Virus record (IMG/VR): IMGVR_UViG_3300027903_000003
Span: 1 to 43,869 of that record
DNA from: a virus
Length of the DNA stretch: 43,869 nt
Direction: 5' to 3' (one strand)
Positions 1-43,869 of the stretch are shown here, piece after piece. Within the stretch, counting starts at the first letter, position 1, and each line of letters starts with the position of its first letter. The notes below the pieces were generated by a model that saw only the letters and a list, made by a program, of their open reading frames with translations, did not search any database and was not told the origin of the DNA. The position numbers and the translations under genes are program-made.

Positions 1-99
1 ACTCCCTTGGGGTGCCATCGGGCTGGCGCGTAATGGCAACGTTGGCCCACATGGCGTTCGACCGATGCGCGCGCAAGATGAAGGTCTTGTCAGGTCCTT
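1..99. repeat. Left copy of 99-bp terminal direct repeat (circular overlap)
   Basis: Bases 1-99 are identical to 43771-43869. A gene reads through the join without interruption when the copies are merged, so the molecule was assembled as a circle. An overlap of exactly 99 nt resembles an assembler k-mer overlap more than a biological terminal repeat, although a true short repeat cannot be excluded. Confidence 0.95.
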
Positions 100-220
100 C
101 TGGCAACAGCGAGTCAAGCGCATCTGCGTAAACTTTGGCTGCAGCCCTCACTTGCGCCATCGCTTCAATCTGAGCATCGGTGGGCTTTAGATATTCGAAC
201 GTCGAAAGGTGAAGAGACAT
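1..220 (-). CDS. acb2: Acb2-like cyclic-nucleotide sponge (anti-CBASS candidate), wraps the contig join
   Basis: This small acidic-helical protein starts at 220 and its TAA stop uses base 1 plus 43770-43769, giving 73 residues when the circle is closed. It is two predicted helices with a turn around LLPEGPDKT (residues 38-46) and ends in the MWANVAITR signature (57-65), the hallmark of the Acb2/Tad1 hairpin family. Acb2 proteins form hexamers that bind the cyclic di- and trinucleotides made by CBASS and so block that abortive defence. The ribosome site CGGAG lies 5 nt before the ATG. It follows the 71-residue gene by 2 nt and is followed by a small polar protein. Family assignment is from recalled motif similarity; binding activity is inferred. 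Two conserved-looking polar positions, Y10 and K45-T46, could be ligand contacts. Confidence 0.72.
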   Translation of the reverse strand, partial: MSLHLSTFEYLKPTDAQIEAMAQVRAAAKVYADALDSLLPEGPDKTFILRAHRSNAMWANVAITRQPDGTPRE

Positions 221-2645: not shown

Positions 2646-4409
2646 TCACTGATTTTCGTAAACACCTGAAAATCTGAACTTATCATTTACCGCCCACGCG
2701 CCGCCACCATATTTCAGGCATGTACCCGTCGCACTCGCAGCAGTTACGTCACAACCAATCAAATTATTCGTATTTTGGTACTCTCGTCCAGCCATGACCC
2801 CCGACGAATTTGCGGTATTAGGCAATGTGAAAGTCAAAGTTGAAACGCAAGTGCCGATCGCGGTAATCGTCGCATCGCCTTGTATCCAAGTTGTTTTTCC
2901 AAGCGTTTTAGAACGCGTCGAATTGACCGTAAATGTCGCTGTACCGCATGTAAAAGCCGGCGTGTACGTCGTCCAAGCTATCCCGGTATCTCCGGTTCCC
3001 CCATTTGCTACAGGAAGTGGTGAAGTAATCGAGATCGCACCGGTCGCTGCTGCAATAGCCAGAGGGGCCGAAGCTGTAACCGCAGGAGTACCACTGCCCG
3101 ATCCCCAAGTAACCGTAGGCGTTCCTGCGGCTGCTGGCACATTCTGAATAAGCGATCCGCTCGTAGCGCCATTGAGGGTGAGTGAACCGCCCGTACCGCC
3201 ATTTACTCCAGAATTAAGGACCCCAGCCGCAGTTACCGTTCCGGCACTGTTGACTTGAAATCTGGTGGCATTAGCAATCGTGTAATTGACGAAGTTCCCG
3301 GTAAATGTCCCGCCACTGTTGCCAGCATTGATGTAGTCGAAAGTGCCACTGAACGGCGTCGTCGTTTGAAAGCTGCTACGGATATTTCCAGCGGACTGGA
3401 AACCGACGATCCACTGTTGCCAATCAGTTGTGGCTGTTCCGGGGCCATCATCGAAGAATTTTTCAAATACTGAAGTTGCCCCATTAGCCCTTTCCAACGA
3501 TGAACATGAACTAGATACGTTGGTGCCAGTCTCAACACAGTGAAGACCAGTATGAACGTTCGCGGGATTAAGAAACGAATTTTGAATTAGAATTCCCTGG
3601 TCCCCACTAGTACCCGTCGTTACTATGCGGTGTGAAACCCCAGCATTGGACGTTGCACTGTAGATACCATCTCCAACATTATTTTGAAGAACTGCAAACA
3701 GCGGGGTGTCGTTTGCTGCCGCGACCCCTGGCTGAGTGGTGGTCGCGCCGTTCATAAGTACGAAATTTTCGTAAGGCCAATTGGAAACGACCTGATTCTG
3801 GTCGCCGACATTGTTCGTATATCCCACTGGACATAGTTTTTGCGTTGCCAGGGGGATTGTCTGTTGATCGCAGAAATTACTCTGTACTGCCACGTTCTGA
3901 AGACTTGATCTCGCCCCTAGCCCAAGGAAATCCGTACCCGTCGCCCGGTTAGCAGTACGGACAAGGCTCACATTCCCGAGGTTCGGATCGGCATTCTGCC
4001 CAACGATCTGAATTCCATTTGGAACGATCTCGTTACCGCTGCTACTTGGTGGCTGATATAAACAACCCGCAGGCAGTAAAATACGAAAAAATCCAGCCGA
4101 GATCGCCGCTGCAATAGCAGCAGAAGCATCTGTAGACCCTGTACAAGAACCAAGACTTGCGAAGCTTCGTGCATCAGCAAGTGGCAAACCACTTGCAAAA
4201 CTACTGGGCAAAGCACCGCCTACTATGCCATTAAACGTTGCTGTCCCAGTGAAAGTCGTTGCACCATTGAACGTCTGCGCCGCCGACCACGTGTTGATCA
4301 AATTAAACGGATTCTTGAAAGTACCATTAAGCGCAAGGAAGCTGTCCGTCTGCGCCTGGGCAGCGTTCGACAGAACCAGCCCAAGCAGAAAACTAGCCAA
4401 CCACTTCAT
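2646..4409 (-). CDS. Tail spike/fibre protein with signal peptide
   Basis: 587 residues. The ATG at 4409 begins MKWLASFLLGLVLSNAAQAQ, a textbook Sec signal ending in AQA; a longer in-frame start at 4445 would bury it. AGGA lies about 10 nt upstream. The body is long, beta-rich and Asn/Thr/Gly-rich, with an SLGSCTGSTDASAAI segment near residue 85-100 resembling the entry of pectate-lyase-like tailspikes, and late ANGGTG motifs common in phage fibres. It overlaps the upstream tail gene end by 17 nt. It probably binds the host surface. Carrying an export signal on a virion fibre is unusual. Confidence 0.8.
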   Translation of the reverse strand: MKWLASFLLGLVLSNAAQAQTDSFLALNGTFKNPFNLINTWSAAQTFNGATTFTGTATFNGIVGGALPSSFASGLPLADARSFASLGSCTGSTDASAAIAAAISAGFFRILLPAGCLYQPPSSSGNEIVPNGIQIVGQNADPNLGNVSLVRTANRATGTDFLGLGARSSLQNVAVQSNFCDQQTIPLATQKLCPVGYTNNVGDQNQVVSNWPYENFVLMNGATTTQPGVAAANDTPLFAVLQNNVGDGIYSATSNAGVSHRIVTTGTSGDQGILIQNSFLNPANVHTGLHCVETGTNVSSSCSSLERANGATSVFEKFFDDGPGTATTDWQQWIVGFQSAGNIRSSFQTTTPFSGTFDYINAGNSGGTFTGNFVNYTIANATRFQVNSAGTVTAAGVLNSGVNGGTGGSLTLNGATSGSLIQNVPAAAGTPTVTWGSGSGTPAVTASAPLAIAAATGAISITSPLPVANGGTGDTGIAWTTYTPAFTCGTATFTVNSTRSKTLGKTTWIQGDATITAIGTCVSTLTFTLPNTANSSGVMAGREYQNTNNLIGCDVTAASATGTCLKYGGGAWAVNDKFRFSGVYENQ

Positions 4410-6273
4410 AGGCGAATGTCCTGTCTGCCCGCGAGTTATTAGCATGCGTCACCGTGAAGAACCCGGTACCCGGGACCACTGAAGTCGTTGCCCCGTCGTT
4501 CGCAGCATCCGGCGTCTCGGGAGACCACAAGACCTTCGACGCAGGCGTACACGGCGCCGGGACCACCGTAGTCACCGCATTTGCGTTAAGCGTGAAGTCG
4601 CCAATCGCGAGAATCGTTGGCACCTTGGGGGCTCCTACCTGCGCAGCGGGCTGTGCCAGCAGATAACCTAGAATCTGATAGCGCAGATTGAGCCGGCCCA
4701 ATTTTATACCAGCTGCACTCATACCTGTGAAGGCCAGCGTAAGCCGTTGGAAAACCAGCGGTTGCTTCCACAACAGCTGCCGTGGCGCCAGCGCATTGGC
4801 AGCACCCTGCCAGGGCGCCTGCCCCCAGGTAAATGCTCCCCAGATCGTCGCTGCCCCGGCTGCCACGATCGTCACGAGGTCGAGCACTGTCCCGTTCTGC
4901 TCCAGTGCCGCGCATATAATGTTGCTTTGCGATACCAAAGCGGCCATTAGCGTCGCCTCGATGATGCAATTCTGCGACATCTGGTCGGTGTTGGGCAGGA
5001 AAGCGGTCTGGAACGTGTATGTAAGCTGCTGATTGTACTCGACAAACGAACTCGTACCTGACTGCACTTGATCGCTCTGGTAAATCTTCGCGCCTTGTCC
5101 TTGCGCCGTGGTCAGAAACGTATTCAGGTAAGGCTCGATCATCGATACCTGAGTGGTGTGCGGACCCGACCAGACTTCACGGACGAAATCGTACCACCAC
5201 TCCTGCTGCGGGCTCCCCGTCGCATTGCCGTTCTGCACCTGCGCCCGATACACGCCTCCATTGAACGACGCGTTTGCCCGGCTGGGAACCAAAGAAAAGA
5301 AAAACGGCTCGGTAATCCCGTCACCGGCTTTGCCGACTGGGTCGCTGACACGCGCGTTGAAGTCGATGACACGCAGCCCGTCAGGCGCCAGAAAAGCCAG
5401 ACCTTTTGTAGTCGCCGATACTGAATTAGGACTGAGCGTCCCAGTCGCCACATTCAGCGTATTGACTGCCAGATTGGCGAACGCAGCATCACCCGTAATC
5501 TGGTAGATGTTCGCCACACCTTTAAAAATAATAAGCGATTGAATAATACCGCCCAGCTGGTTGAAAAGAGCTAAACCCTGAGCACATGTCAGAGGTACAT
5601 TATCGCCAAACGTCAAAACCTGATTAGCATTGGTAATGACCGTAGGAGCGAGGATGTCGGAAAAATAAGCCCCTGGCTGACCATTCGCGGGATTGACGAG
5701 AAAATAGCAACGGCCGTTGAAATTCGCCAGCCACTGCGGCGGCGCCACAAGCGGATTCACCGTCGTGTTCGTGCCCGCCCAAGTAGGCGCAGCAAAGACA
5801 GCAGTGTCGATCACCCCGAAAAAAGCACCCCCAGCACCAGTAAATCCCGGGTGTGCGATCATAATCTTGGTCCCGACCAGGGCCATGATCGGCGGGTTCC
5901 AGGGACCTGCTATTGCCGGACTTATCGGCGTGTTGACCGCCGTCACCCCGGAGATCGCCGTGAACGTGTTGGTATTGATGTTGTAGCAGAACGGCTCGTC
6001 CTGCCCGGGATTGCGCGTCGTCGACACCATCCCGTATATGCGATTGCCGATAACGATCGTGCATGGGATGAAGGTAGCCCCGGCAAAGCCATTCAGCGCC
6101 AGATCGGTCAGCAATTGCGATGCCGGCCGGCACTGCCAGAGATCCTTGGTCGACGGGTCGGGGATCAAATTCGCCAGCGACGCCATCGCCCCGGTGAACG
6201 CCGTCGTCGAGTCAAGCGTATCACTCGCACCACGCGGGCTCCAGGGAAGAGGTTTGGCCTTACGGAGAGCCAC
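4393..6273 (-). CDS. Tail hub/DNA stabilisation protein (P22 gp10-like)
   Basis: 626 residues, beta-rich with repeated short strand-turn units, as in the beta-propeller-like stabilisation proteins that plug the connector of P22-type tails after packaging. Landmarks include the opening MALRKAKPLPWSP followed by many aromatic turns, and a C-terminal all-beta domain of about 90 residues (after YQILGYLLAQP) ending in ADRTFAYEVVG. Its start lies 3 nt after the stop of the gp4-like adaptor, the order seen in P22-like and related podophages (portal, capsid, gp4, gp10, fibre). Assignment rests on position, size and composition rather than a single catalytic motif. Confidence 0.68.
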   Translation of the reverse strand: MALRKAKPLPWSPRGASDTLDSTTAFTGAMASLANLIPDPSTKDLWQCRPASQLLTDLALNGFAGATFIPCTIVIGNRIYGMVSTTRNPGQDEPFCYNINTNTFTAISGVTAVNTPISPAIAGPWNPPIMALVGTKIMIAHPGFTGAGGAFFGVIDTAVFAAPTWAGTNTTVNPLVAPPQWLANFNGRCYFLVNPANGQPGAYFSDILAPTVITNANQVLTFGDNVPLTCAQGLALFNQLGGIIQSLIIFKGVANIYQITGDAAFANLAVNTLNVATGTLSPNSVSATTKGLAFLAPDGLRVIDFNARVSDPVGKAGDGITEPFFFSLVPSRANASFNGGVYRAQVQNGNATGSPQQEWWYDFVREVWSGPHTTQVSMIEPYLNTFLTTAQGQGAKIYQSDQVQSGTSSFVEYNQQLTYTFQTAFLPNTDQMSQNCIIEATLMAALVSQSNIICAALEQNGTVLDLVTIVAAGAATIWGAFTWGQAPWQGAANALAPRQLLWKQPLVFQRLTLAFTGMSAAGIKLGRLNLRYQILGYLLAQPAAQVGAPKVPTILAIGDFTLNANAVTTVVPAPCTPASKVLWSPETPDAANDGATTSVVPGTGFFTVTHANNSRADRTFAYEVVG

Positions 6274-35158: not shown

Positions 35159-36499
35159 CTAACTGTTCGGCTGGCTTGAGTAGGTCAAACCGCTGGCGTA
35201 CCCCATCGCTTGCAGGGTAGGCAACTGCTTCGACAGTCTCAAGCCGATGTCCGTTCGATACATCGGCGAACCCGGCATCCGCTTCTTGATCCGCTCCAGG
35301 CGCTTGTAGACCTTGCCCCGGGCGTCCTGCACCGTCGCCCCCAGCGATGTCATCACCAGTACGTAGTCGCCGGCCGTCATCAGCGTGGGCATCTTGATCA
35401 AGGCCCCAGCGGCTTCGCAGTATGCTTCCCCCGCCATCATCTCGCACGGGTGCAAGTCTTTCATCAACCCGGGCGTGACGCCGAGGAGCGGTATCCCGAC
35501 CACTTCCTTGCGGGTCAGACGCGAGTAGGGATAGTCCGGCACGGACAGCACGACTCCGATTGCCAGCTGGTCGAGAAAAAACGGACGGGCGTCCTTCCCC
35601 GTCGCCAGATCGTACAGCCACTCTACCGGGTCTCCGCGTAGCAGAGCGCACTGGAGCTGGAACGCCGGCCAGCCCAGGCGCATGGTGAATTCAAGCGGCC
35701 AGGGTTTACCCTTTGCGTCGATGATACAGTTGACCGCGACATCGCCTACATAATTCAGCTTTTCGAGCTGTTTGGTCAAGGGCACAAGGATCTTGTTCGC
35801 CAGCTTCGATGCGCGTACATAGCGCAGCACGGTGCCTTGCTCGCCCGTAGCGGGACCGCACTCGCCATTCATCAATTTCTTGAATTCGAAACACTCTTCC
35901 CAGCCAGCGTTCCAGCCATGCGGACCAAACCAGCCAGCGGCGCCCATCTCGATACCTGGTATAAACTCTTGCAGAATGAAGCTCCCCTTGAGTTTATCCG
36001 CGCCCTTCCACCGTTCGAGCATGTAGACCATGTCGTCCGGCCCCGAGGAACAGTAGGAAAGGGCTTTGTCTGCGTTGGCATCGTCGCACGGCTTGCTGAC
36101 GAATCGCCCCATCGTCTTTTTCACAAAGCTGATCGCATCGTCGTAGGAATGAAATTCCTTGGAAGTCGCTATGTCGATGCCCGCCTTGCGAAAAACATCC
36201 TGACCCAGCTTCCGGTCCAATTCCCAGCTGGCTGCTTCCTGCGAGGGGGCGACAATAAGACCTCCTTCTTTGCGATGCTGATCGAGATCTCGGAGATAAA
36301 GCGAATTATCGGTGCAGACAATCAAGTTGGCCCAGCGCAGCCACGGCTTGTGATCGGCCACTACCTCACAAAGTCCGCGCCCAATATGCTTGGTCTTTTC
36401 GTCCTGACGAATAGCCAGTTTTACTTCATGTCCTGCGTTCTGGGCACGGATCGCCAGATCGAGCCCGTGACCGGGCGGGTCGACAATCAGTAGTCTCAC
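35159..36499 (-). CDS. PurD-like ATP-grasp enzyme
   Basis: 446 residues from GTG at 36499, overlapping the HiPIP-like stop as GTGA. N-terminal Rossmann-like start MRLLIVDPPGHGLDLAIRA (1-19), ATP-grasp core with GRFVSKPC (about 131-138), SFILQEFIPGIEMG (about 173-186) and GDVAVNCIIDAKGKPWPLEFTMRLGWP (split at about 254-280), where NCIID and LEFTMRLG supply metal/ATP acids. The overall order matches phosphoribosylamine-glycine ligase (PurD), which makes amide bonds with ATP. A purine role for the phage is possible, but an unknown ligation (for example of a DNA-base or virion substrate) is equally possible because it is placed in the virion block. Confidence 0.75.
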   Translation of the reverse strand: MRLLIVDPPGHGLDLAIRAQNAGHEVKLAIRQDEKTKHIGRGLCEVVADHKPWLRWANLIVCTDNSLYLRDLDQHRKEGGLIVAPSQEAASWELDRKLGQDVFRKAGIDIATSKEFHSYDDAISFVKKTMGRFVSKPCDDANADKALSYCSSGPDDMVYMLERWKGADKLKGSFILQEFIPGIEMGAAGWFGPHGWNAGWEECFEFKKLMNGECGPATGEQGTVLRYVRASKLANKILVPLTKQLEKLNYVGDVAVNCIIDAKGKPWPLEFTMRLGWPAFQLQCALLRGDPVEWLYDLATGKDARPFFLDQLAIGVVLSVPDYPYSRLTRKEVVGIPLLGVTPGLMKDLHPCEMMAGEAYCEAAGALIKMPTLMTAGDYVLVMTSLGATVQDARGKVYKRLERIKKRMPGSPMYRTDIGLRLSKQLPTLQAMGYASGLTYSSQPNS

Positions 36500-36971: not shown

Positions 36972-39724
36972 TGCGGGCCTCCATATCGTTGCTCCTGCCC
37001 ACCGTCTTTAGCACGTTCACGATCGATGTTCCTACCGACCAGCGATGAAGGCGTAACAAGCTGGCCTTGAGTCGAAGGGTCAGGCCCCCTTCCCTGCGGC
37101 GCCCCACTCCGCACGCCTTGTGCCAGGATGAACTGCTGCAACACGCTCATGGTACTGCGGGCGCGCACCGGATCGACGCGGACTTCATCGGCCAGCAGGT
37201 GCAGAATGCGCGGGTGGTCGGCAACCCAGCCGGCAATCTGCTTGGTTATGTACTTGCTAACCGCAAGCGGATTCAGCCACAGACCGCCTTTGATGCTGGC
37301 CGCGGCAAGCGATGTGCCCATGTCACTTGACGCCGATTCAGGAAACAGAAAACGCGCTTCCTTGGCCAGCATCCGCATATCATCGGCCAGTCCACCGGGA
37401 AATAGAAGTTCCTGCTGGCGCGGCGTAAATGCCCGCAACGCGCGGTCGATCGCTTCGCCCGCAATGGTCTTGTCAAGCGATTTGCGCTGGATGATCGACG
37501 ACGCAAAGAGTTTCTGCATCGCGTGGCGGCGGATTGTCTGCCACGCGGGCGATCTTTCTCCGAGCGTGTGTGCAGCGGCTTCTGTGACTGCTTCTCGTCC
37601 CGGCCGGGTAATTTGCGCCAGCGCGGCATCGACTTTCATCGGTGAGTTGGATACGAGTCCACCGAGCGGATTCTGCTGGACGAAGATATCGGCCGCTTGC
37701 CGTGCCGCCACGGCTTCGCGCAGGAGCTGCGTGATGTCGGTCGGATCGCGCAGCGCCGTCGCATCTACGCGACCGTCGAACGCAGCCAACTGTGTGGCAT
37801 AAAGTCGCAGTTCTGCCAGCGTATCGGGCGGATAGGTAGCGGCAAGCAAGCGGTGCCGCTGGTCCAGCAGTTTTATCAGGCTCTGGCCATCGACCACCAT
37901 CATGCTGCGATCGTTCCACGTCGCGGCCTGATGTAGCATGGCATTGAGATCGGCCTGCACCACCCGGCGCCGCATGTCCACAGGCAGCATGGTCAGAACT
38001 TCGCGCGCGAGGTTCACGTTGTCCGGCGTCATGAACAGGCGCGTGACGGTTCCCGGTTCGGGCACGATCCCGGATCGCAGCTCCTGCACGACGCGATTTA
38101 TGCTCCTGTTGTTGAACCTGCGGATGCCTTCGCGATACAGCGTGTCGACCCGGCGCAGCGACTGCGCTGCCTGCTGCCCCGTAGTCCCTTCGGCACTCTG
38201 CATCGCCCGGTCGACTGCCCCGGCCATGAGACGGTAGTGATGCGGCGTGATCCCTTGCGCTGCCACATCGGATATCTCGCCATGCTCCCGGAACACGGTA
38301 CGCAGCGCATGAGCCTGCTCAAAAGTGAACGGCTCGTTTCTTCCTACCAGTCCGCGAATGATTGGCGGTACAGCCTGGGGAGGCAGAAGACTGACGATCT
38401 GGCGAGCCTGCTGATCGATAGAAACGGGAGGTACTATAGGGGTGTCGCCGGTCATGCGATCAACAGCCCGGTAGGCGTCGGACATCTCGCGTCCGAACTG
38501 CCGGCGGCGCGTCACGATCGCGTCTGCAACACTTTGCCCCAAGCTGGCCGGCGCGCGCGACAGGCTCTCCAGCACGCGCGTATGGTGATTCAGCTGCCGT
38601 TCAGCTTCATCGCGCGATGTGTTGGCAGTCTGTACCAGTCCTTGGTGCGCCCGCTGCGCTTCGCTGGTTATCGCCTCCCCAGCCGTCCGTGCCGACATCC
38701 TGGCCGATGTGTCGCCAACCTCGTTCATGAACTGCTCGACTTGAGGCGGCGCCAATCCCTCGTTGGTCAAGACACTGCGCATGCGACTGTTGAGGTAAAG
38801 GATGTTTTTCTGCTCAGCAGCACTGCCTCCAGGACCGGACAGGATATCACGCAGCTGCCGCTTGTACTCTAGCGAAGTCGCCCCGGGCGCGTAGGAACCG
38901 ATCGGCGGCACGGCGCCGCCGGCAGACAGGTCCCTGGCCATCATGCTACTGGACGGCGTGACGCCGCTGAATCTCTGCAGTGCACGCTGCAATGGTGCTT
39001 TGAGCGTCCGTACGGCTGGACCGGCACCCTGCAAAACACCCGCGATCGACCCTTCAGTAGCCATGCTACCAACGACTTCGGCAGGCTTCTGGGCAAACGT
39101 GCCCATCGCCCATTTCGTAAGCTGGTCAAGGCCCTTGCCGGCCGCCGCCCCGGCCATGGCGCCCGGGATACCGCCGCCAGCGGGGAAAACCACTTCGCCC
39201 CCGACGGCGCCCAGCGTGGCGCCAGCGGTTGCGAAAGGCGAGGCCACTATTCCAGAGAAGAAATTCCTGAGCCCGCCGCTCAACCCCTTGGGCAGAACAG
39301 CGACCCGACGACTGGTCGTTTCCAACGGCATGCCATGGTGACGGGCTGCAATTTGCTCGAGCGAACCTGCTTTGGAACTTGGCACGTCTTGCCTGACCCA
39401 CCACTGGTCGAAGCGGTCCTGGCCGAAATTTCCCCGGCCATATGTGCGCTCAAGCGTCTTGTAGGCTTCCGTGGGATTTTGCGCGCCTTGCAGCTGCGCG
39501 CGCACGGAAAAAGGCGCCCCGGTACTGTAATCGATATCAGCCTCTTCCTTTTGAATCAGTTGCCGGCCACGATCGAGCAGCTTGTTTTCGACGTCCGGGT
39601 CGGATGAAGCCGGCCGGTCGGAAAGAATTTCCCAGCTACCCGCACCTGTCTGTGGAGAAGCTGGCTGAACAGGCGCCTGAAAACCCCTGGCAGGACGATC
39701 GGAGAGGATTTCCCACTCGGCCAT
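36968..39724 (-). CDS. Large internal virion/ejection protein
   Basis: 918 residues from ATG at 39724 (TGATG overlap with the double-HTH gene). N-terminus has two WEILSDRPA repeats (about 3-11 and 31-39), a hydrophobic glycine-rich helix GATLGAVGGEVVFPAGGGIPGAMAGAAAGKG (split over about 167-197) that could insert in a membrane, then long helices. Length, helicity and position after the tail genes fit a podophage ejection protein that enters the host envelope with DNA. No transglycosylase motif seen. Confidence 0.75.
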   Translation of the reverse strand: MAEWEILSDRPARGFQAPVQPASPQTGAGSWEILSDRPASSDPDVENKLLDRGRQLIQKEEADIDYSTGAPFSVRAQLQGAQNPTEAYKTLERTYGRGNFGQDRFDQWWVRQDVPSSKAGSLEQIAARHHGMPLETTSRRVAVLPKGLSGGLRNFFSGIVASPFATAGATLGAVGGEVVFPAGGGIPGAMAGAAAGKGLDQLTKWAMGTFAQKPAEVVGSMATEGSIAGVLQGAGPAVRTLKAPLQRALQRFSGVTPSSSMMARDLSAGGAVPPIGSYAPGATSLEYKRQLRDILSGPGGSAAEQKNILYLNSRMRSVLTNEGLAPPQVEQFMNEVGDTSARMSARTAGEAITSEAQRAHQGLVQTANTSRDEAERQLNHHTRVLESLSRAPASLGQSVADAIVTRRRQFGREMSDAYRAVDRMTGDTPIVPPVSIDQQARQIVSLLPPQAVPPIIRGLVGRNEPFTFEQAHALRTVFREHGEISDVAAQGITPHHYRLMAGAVDRAMQSAEGTTGQQAAQSLRRVDTLYREGIRRFNNRSINRVVQELRSGIVPEPGTVTRLFMTPDNVNLAREVLTMLPVDMRRRVVQADLNAMLHQAATWNDRSMMVVDGQSLIKLLDQRHRLLAATYPPDTLAELRLYATQLAAFDGRVDATALRDPTDITQLLREAVAARQAADIFVQQNPLGGLVSNSPMKVDAALAQITRPGREAVTEAAAHTLGERSPAWQTIRRHAMQKLFASSIIQRKSLDKTIAGEAIDRALRAFTPRQQELLFPGGLADDMRMLAKEARFLFPESASSDMGTSLAAASIKGGLWLNPLAVSKYITKQIAGWVADHPRILHLLADEVRVDPVRARSTMSVLQQFILAQGVRSGAPQGRGPDPSTQGQLVTPSSLVGRNIDRERAKDGGQEQRYGGPQ

Positions 39725-40302
39725 CACTTATCTCCAAATATTTTCAGGAATCGGGCTAATTCGGCAGGATCGATGTCTTCGGGTAATTGCATGGATTTCA
39801 GTTGCGGTAATGAGGGCGTGCGTTCCTGGCTGGCTCTATAGCCAAACGGCGTATTCTGACTTTGCAGTCCCAGAACCCTCGCCCTGCCAGCGATTGCACC
39901 CCGAGAGGTTCCCATGGTGCGCGCCGCCTCGTTGTAGCTCCAGCCCTGACCGAGTAACTTTGTCAGTTGCGTATCGGTTTTATCAGTCCAAAATGGGGGT
40001 TCTGCTACGTCGCCTGAAGTTCGTTGGCGCGGATTATTTTGCCGCCAGACGCGACCAGCTACTGCTTCCCGGCTGATCCCCAGCTCGTCAGCTATATCCG
40101 CAAAACTCTTCCCCTCAGAGCGCATTTGCGTAAGACGGCTGGCTTTTTCAGGATTAGCCCATGCGCTGAGAGGTCTATTGACTCCCCGAGCCATCCCTCC
40201 AAAATTGAAGGCGCTGGCCTGTTCTATGTTTTTGGCAAGTATGTCCGGATTGCGAAGAAGCTCACGCAGATAGTCGGCGGGCTTGGTTCCAGGCAGATGC
40301 AC
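39724..40302 (-). CDS. Protein with two GcrA-like helix-turn-helix motifs in the ejection operon
   Basis: 192 residues, GTG start at 40302 with no clear ribosome site. Motif 1: SRLTQMRSEGKSFADIADEL (55-74) then GISREAVAGRVWR. Motif 2: FWTDKTDTQLTKLLGQGWSY (104-123) then GTSRGAIAGRARVLGL. Both follow GcrA's N-terminal motif, including the W-T-D-E/K start and the A-I/V-x-G-R turn, and GcrA binds sigma70 and methylated promoters in alphaproteobacteria. The C-terminal helix (PEDIDPAELARFLKIFG) is separate. Lying between two ejection genes it may be a virion-carried regulator or DNA-binding structural protein. Confidence 0.72.
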   Translation of the reverse strand: MHLPGTKPADYLRELLRNPDILAKNIEQASAFNFGGMARGVNRPLSAWANPEKASRLTQMRSEGKSFADIADELGISREAVAGRVWRQNNPRQRTSGDVAEPPFWTDKTDTQLTKLLGQGWSYNEAARTMGTSRGAIAGRARVLGLQSQNTPFGYRASQERTPSLPQLKSMQLPEDIDPAELARFLKIFGDK

Positions 40303-43101: not shown

Positions 43102-43623
43102 TCACAACCGCCTCCGCATTACGATGTCAGTCGGCTCATAGCCGAGCCGCGCCAGCAGCTTGCCCACCCGGGCGTCCTTGTAGTGCAGCTTGAAGTTGAT
43201 CGTCGTGATCACGACTTCGCGTTCCTTCAAACCGCTCAGGTTTTCCAGAAACATCTTAACAGGTTGCCAGCCTTTGCGGAAGCGAGGGTGCAGCCAGAAC
43301 ATCTCGGTGTGCGCAAAGCGCGTCGAGACATAGTGGTTGTGCGAACCGACCAGATTGAAAATGTACCCGGCCAGTTTGCCGTTGTAGCGCGCCGTCAGGA
43401 TGTGAAGAAGCCCGCGCTCGTCGAGAACGAAATAGTTCTCCCAGTCGGGATCGAGCGGCACAGCGTCCTGATCGTGCGCGATCTCGCGATAGTGCAGCCT
43501 GAAAAGCGGGCACAGTTCTTCCGAAATCGCGATAAAGTGCTCCCAGCGAAAAGTAAGGTCAGGCCGTGCGCGGACCGAGCGACTTGGGACCTTGGCCGAT
43601 GGACGAACGTGTTGCATCATCAT
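43102..43623 (-). CDS. GNAT-fold acetyltransferase-like virion-region protein
   Basis: 173 residues from the first of three ATGs (43623), with GGGAG 5 nt upstream; overlaps the preceding small gene by 65 nt. GNAT pattern: ELCPLFRLHYREIAHDQ (start helix), a strand set LLHILTARYNGKLAGYIF, then FWLHPRFRKGWQPVKMFLENL, where RKGW replaces the acetyl-CoA binding R/Q-x-x-G-x-G/A, and the final LLARLGYEP. GNATs of this type are common just before ejection genes in podophages; substrate unknown. The phosphate-binding loop is degenerate, so catalysis is uncertain. Confidence 0.72.
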   Translation of the reverse strand: MMMQHVRPSAKVPSRSVRARPDLTFRWEHFIAISEELCPLFRLHYREIAHDQDAVPLDPDWENYFVLDERGLLHILTARYNGKLAGYIFNLVGSHNHYVSTRFAHTEMFWLHPRFRKGWQPVKMFLENLSGLKEREVVITTINFKLHYKDARVGKLLARLGYEPTDIVMRRRL

Positions 43624-43765
43624 TGACGCTCCCACCGCCCTTGCCGTCGAAGCCTTTCATCCTGGCCGACGCATCCGGCCACTTGGGCGACTTATTGGTC
43701 AGCCCTTTGTGGAGATCAGTGGTCGTCTGGTTGTTCGACTTACCGGAACCGAATTTGTCGTGCAT
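43559..43765 (-). CDS. Small polar protein after Acb2-like gene
   Basis: 68 residues, Gly/Ser/Lys/Asp-rich and mostly disordered (MHDKFGSGKSNNQTTTDL). GGGAG at the end of the Acb2-like gene lies 6 nt before its ATG, so it is co-translated after it. Its end overlaps the GNAT gene. No family recognised. Confidence 0.65.
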   Translation of the reverse strand: MHDKFGSGKSNNQTTTDLHKGLTNKSPKWPDASARMKGFDGKGGGSVNDDATRSSIGQGPKSLGPRTA

Positions 43766-43768
43766 GGG

Positions 43769-43869
43769 TTACTCCCTTGGGGTGCCATCGGGCTGGCGCG
43801 TAATGGCAACGTTGGCCCACATGGCGTTCGACCGATGCGCGCGCAAGATGAAGGTCTTGTCAGGTCCTT
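43769..43869 (-). CDS. acb2: Second, truncated copy of the Acb2-like 3' end (contig overlap)
   Basis: Bases 43771-43869 repeat 1-99, so this is the same gene as at 1-220, here lacking its 5' part and carrying the TAA stop at 43771-43769. Do not count it as a second gene. Confidence 0.9.
   Translation of the reverse strand, partial: GPDKTFILRAHRSNAMWANVAITRQPDGTPRE
43771..43869. repeat. Right copy of 99-bp terminal direct repeat
   Basis: Identical to 1-99; see the left copy. Closing the circle here restores the Acb2-like gene and its adjacency to the gene at 43765. Confidence 0.95.

Follow-up and report, generated by a model that had tools for sequence, protein, structure and literature searches.

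The locus at the ends of the contig

The window analysed here is the whole stretch of 43,869 nucleotides (IMG/VR record IMGVR_UViG_3300027903_000003), which comes from an uncultured soil phage. Translation of the ORF running from 220 to 2 on the minus strand gives a 73-residue product, MSLHLSTFEYLKPTDAQIEAMAQVRAAAKVYADALDSLLPEGPDKTFILRAHRSNAMWANVAITRQPDGTPRE, in which both the PEGPDKT turn and the MWANVAITR stretch reported in a first-pass annotation of the same DNA are present (Table 1). A GGAG ribosome-binding-like site lies directly 5' of its ATG. The ends of the window carry an exact repeat of 99 bp (1-99 = 43771-43869) and when the circle is closed, as had been recommended at that stage, a TAA is found immediately 3' of codon 73; the second copy of the repeat, at the other contig end, encodes the last 32 residues of the protein only. 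The contig join is backed independently by the gene order, relatives having the 68-aa gene and the GNAT gene straight after the tail-fibre module. The acb2-like gene had also been described as cut by the contig ends and likely to be missed by automated annotation. The stop codon does cross the join, but all 73 codons are intact, and since the contig edge costs the gene its stop codon only, edge-tolerant gene callers report all 73 residues, so that the expectation of a missed gene was overstated.

Table 1. Features of the acb2-like locus and second PF24729 proteins in two other contigs (window coordinates unless another locus is given)
Feature	Position	Strand	Remarks
acb2-like gene, 73 codons	2..220	-	PF24729 29.8 bits; TAA continues at 1, then 43770-43769 across the join
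99-bp terminal repeat, second copy (= 1-99)	43771..43869	.	holds the last 32 codons of the acb2-like gene
Pro/Ala-rich ORF, 71 aa	223..438	-	next ORF upstream, ending 2 nt short of the acb2-like ATG
Conserved late gene, 68 aa	43559..43765	-	next gene downstream, beyond the join; its ATG follows the acb2-like stop by 3 nt
GNAT acetyltransferase-like gene	43102..43635	-	adjoins the 68-aa gene in relatives too
Probable tail-fibre protein, 534 aa	1045..2649	-	N-terminus conserved, rest variable in relatives
Second PF24729 protein, G047 of L055	L184:877-1059	-	resembles canonical Pseudomonas-phage Acb2
Second PF24729 protein, G043 of L018	L185:5221-5376	-	PF24729

In the window, the acb2-like gene stands between the Pro/Ala-rich ORF and the 68-aa gene with a spacing of 2-3 nt. 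In a relative (G002/L171), a Pro/Ala-rich ORF of 110 aa occupies the slot of the 71-aa ORF, and it abuts and overlaps the 68-aa gene. The acb2-like gene is best read as one accessory gene inserted singly into the late operon, after the tail-fibre module. Judged from its position, it would be expressed late and is probably translated together with the virion proteins. The first-pass annotation had located it between tail and ejection genes: its late surroundings are real, but an ejection role for the downstream genes of 323, 565 and 919 aa finds no support, as none of them has a Pfam or PHROG family match. The tail-fibre protein shows a weak match to the second Mtd domain (E 0.012, under the cut-off).

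Conservation and family membership

A scan of IMG/VR gave at least 80 homologous loci, with 53-88% identity to the 73-aa protein. Mean identity among the homologs was 0.76, 0.81 and 0.39 for the codon positions 1, 2 and 3, respectively, and for the twelve nearest relatives pS ranged from 0.72 to 0.95 and pN from 0.08 to 0.15. The residues P40, P43, D44, K45, T46, R50, R53, M57 and W58 never vary in 67 sequences, and the PxGPDKT turn is, together with R50 and R53, nearly invariant across the short homologs. The acb2-like gene is old and under strong purifying selection. Recent transfer as the cause of the high identity was ruled out because the synonymous sites are close to saturation. No near DNA relative was found among GenBank phages, a plasmid search gave no matches, and the scan of bacterial genomes returned just two loci.

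In agreement with the Acb2/Tad1 hairpin assignment made earlier, the 73-aa protein scores 29.8 bits against the Pfam family PF24729 (Acb2/Tad1 hairpin), above the curated cut-off of 27 (E=7e-7), and T4 Vs.4, used as a positive control, scores 71.4 bits. The same family is matched by 31 of the 32 aligned homologs and in 44 of the 45 larger homolog-bearing contigs (34 over the cut-off), against none of the 14 control genomes. The score of the single protein lies just 2.8 bits above the cut-off, and this could favor a chance similarity, or an ORF that is no gene at all. Both the coding signal and the wide occurrence of the family already refute such a reading, whose probability is practically nil: across the 80 homologous loci the synonymous differences are near-saturated and the non-synonymous ones few, and nearly all the homolog-bearing contigs match PF24729.

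The protein also matches phrog_1454 in PHROG (E=1.7e-11), a family without function annotation. NCBIfam holds no model for the 73-aa protein nor for T4 Vs.4, and our literature search found phrog_1454 and the structure 9ptq mentioned in no paper. No Acb2 chain was recovered when the PDB sequences were searched with phmmer directly or with the family profile; the link to known structures comes from Pfam and from the folds. The profile-profile comparison with Vs.4/Acb2 was weak (probability 29%, E 6e-4 for a single pair); a profile that already includes PDB sequences is circular and was kept out of the evidence. We consider with high confidence that the 73-aa protein belongs to the Acb2 family.

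Predicted fold, known relatives and putative ligand pocket

The AlphaFold (AF2) model of the single chain has helices at residues 5-8, 15-38 and 43-64, with a mean pLDDT of 95.5, and lacks any strand longer than two residues. Its topology, one short helix followed by two long antiparallel helices, is that of Acb2 (PMC10419184). In the Foldseek comparison with the PDB the two best chains were both T4 Vs.4 with cGAMP, and the structural realignment placed Vs.4 first (Z 6.8) and Acb2 8h2x second (Z 6.2), values below 8 lying in the range given by common helical hairpins. The two-helix hairpin anticipated by the first-pass annotation is recovered in the monomer model. Given such modest Z-scores and so widespread a shape as the hairpin, the argument relies on the ranking and on its agreement with Pfam. 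Of the first 19 hits in a viral structure library, almost all bear the name of an Acb2/Tad1 hairpin protein (the top twelve at probability 1.00, the best rmsd being about 1 Å), and as these names stem from the same domain family they bring consistency and not independent proof.

The 73-aa protein shares its Pfam domain with the Acb2 of T4 (Vs.4, 7uq2) and of Pseudomonas phages (p26; 8h2x, 8h2j, 8ixz), from which it differs by being 15-20 residues shorter, with shorter hairpin arms that an invariant PxGPDKT-type turn closes. Its identity in the joint alignment is 20% to T4 Acb2 and 15% to Pseudomonas Acb2 (partial sequence). The short hairpin proteins of mycobacteriophages and lactococcal phages (Phabba, Myrna gp211, 1706 and CHPC971) reach 31-37% identity over the hairpin and share a P(D/E)G(A/P)(D/E)K turn and an M.AN ending, but they differ by extra N- or C-terminal extensions; every one tested matches PF24729, and we found no tested function for them. 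Acb2 homolog 43 (9ptq, 76 aa), 16% identical over a partial sequence in the joint alignment, is a short solved homolog with a similar turn, LPEGREK, so that shortness itself is not new. The helical hairpin of Tad1 (7uav, 8kbe) is the same Pfam domain, 7uav being matched at Z 5.0 over 47 residues. In Tad1 an N-terminal antiparallel beta-sheet domain precedes the hairpin (PMC12043709), and this domain is absent from the 73-aa protein. Neither the family nor the fold is new, and even short members have been described before; our search found no experimentally tested member of the compact short group.

For the joint alignment, T4 Vs.4 was taken from the T4 genome, and the PDB supplied the sequence of Pseudomonas-phage Acb2. 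The Y and the K/R at two aligned positions of the dinucleotide pocket are shared with both proteins: Y10 is aligned with T4 Y8 and R25 with T4 K23, and their counterparts in the Pseudomonas-phage Acb2, according to the aligned PDB sequence, are presumably Y11 and K26. In contrast, the positions of T4 F82 and R79 differ, being T64 and V61 in the 73-aa protein, and T4 T68 corresponds to the invariant R50; F82 is likewise absent from the aligned PDB sequence of Pseudomonas-phage Acb2. For T4 Acb2, the Y8A substitution abolishes the binding of cyclic dinucleotides and residue F82 makes a stacking contact with the ligand (PMC12657218), and T68M lowers binding (PMC12657230). As read from the aligned residues, the dinucleotide pocket appears to be conserved partly, not fully, and a shifted ligand preference is therefore possible.

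Distribution and proposed function

Nearly all the homologous loci have no neighbours in common with the window, and for this reason synteny was dropped as a proof of function. At 22 loci the neighbours include replication genes (PolA, Cas4-like exonuclease, Sak4, SSB), at 12 others terminase or portal genes, and no locus belongs to both sets. The late position holds for the window genome and not for the family, in which replication neighbours are commoner. Among the 38 records that share the capsid protein of the window, some of which are fragments, just two carry the gene (one of the 13 records of at least 41 kb), as expected for an accessory counter-defence gene; in G019 it lies just upstream of terL, and in G033, which is the contig of L009, the start of TerL is some 0.8 kb further downstream. 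A 12-kb contig, L091 (IMGVR_UViG_3300012189_000123), encodes a capsid protein identical to that of the window and is probably the same phage or a very close one.

The place of the gene in a late operon, at 2-3 nt from its neighbours, and the commonness of the two-helix hairpin shape could also fit a small structural or virion-assembly protein with an incidental helical fold. This is very improbable, since the gene is missing from 36 of the 38 capsid-sharing records (fragments included) and stands elsewhere beside the replication, terminase or portal genes mentioned above, and since the profile and fold matches concur on an Acb2 identity; no family hit supports a virion role.

Characterised Acb2 members mop up bacterial cyclic-nucleotide alarm signals. 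By analogy with them, we propose that the 73-aa protein is probably a cyclic-oligonucleotide sponge against CBASS or a similar system. Its hairpins would most likely assemble into a small homo-oligomer, as in the Acb2 of T4 and Pseudomonas phages (a hexamer in the solved cases), and this oligomer would bind, without cleaving it, a cyclic di- or trinucleotide from the CBASS or similar signalling of the host. The capture of the ligand would keep the death effector off during phage maturation, and the phage would have gained this function as a single accessory gene behind its tail-fibre module. Sponges are known to act by stoichiometric sequestration, without cleavage (PMC12043709).

Two contigs bear on the nature of the ligand. 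In G047 (the contig of L055), a short family member is accompanied by a separate protein resembling the Pseudomonas-phage Acb2 (63 bits to PF24729; phmmer 5e-4 to p26), and in G043 (the contig of L018) a second PF24729 protein of 65 aa is found. Such pairs suggest that the paired proteins may have different ligands. They would also fit an Acb2-fold sponge directed at something other than a CBASS dinucleotide, such as a trinucleotide that type III CRISPR also uses, the gcADPR of Thoeris or another nucleotide signal. PF24729 taking in Tad1 too, and the partial conservation of the dinucleotide pocket beside a nearly invariant turn and R50/R53, point in the same direction. However, the beta-sheet domain of Tad1 is missing, the residues equivalent to Y8 and K23 are retained and a clear second copy is present in only 2 of the 45 contigs, so that we regard this alternative as unlikely. 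The sponge against CBASS or a similar system is the reading that we retain. A broader and tentative hypothesis, which we find possible although doubtful, is that the short PxGPDKT proteins form a distinct sponge subfamily with its own ligand, unlike that of canonical Acb2, acting from several genome slots including a late virion operon, and that some phages combine one of them with a canonical Acb2 and so counter two alarm signals.

On sensing Acb2 activity, Panoptes triggers defence (PMC12657218, PMC12657230); as a speculation, this cost may help to explain the sporadic distribution of the acb2-like gene. Our data add to the Acb2 family a compact group of striking conservation, drawn from metagenomic phages whose hosts are probably Alphaproteobacteria. 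The two contigs with a second PF24729 protein, having two putative sponges per genome, make ligand specialisation directly testable, and the late-operon site raises a question of timing, that is, whether a sponge made alongside the capsid proteins counters CBASS at the moment when it is triggered.

Concerning the host, a 192-aa protein of the late region (39724-40302, minus strand) has a GcrA-like match of 52 bits and an HTH, GcrA being an alphaproteobacterial cell-cycle regulator, and a Rhizobiales contig (L089) carries a homolog of the 73-aa protein; together they point weakly to an alphaproteobacterial host. Two other genes of the window deserve mention. The product of 35159-36499 (minus strand) is a PurD-like ATP-grasp protein of 446 aa, with 58-77% identity in the related phages examined; it scores 72.6 bits against TIGR00877, for a cut-off of 288, and GARS_A and GARS_C are likewise under their cut-offs. 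The homologs of the 626-aa late protein encoded at 4393-6273 contain one in-frame TGA each in G026, G027, G028, G014 and G010 and one in-frame TAG in G008, which may reflect an artefact of assembly, a gene split in two or the recoding of a stop codon.
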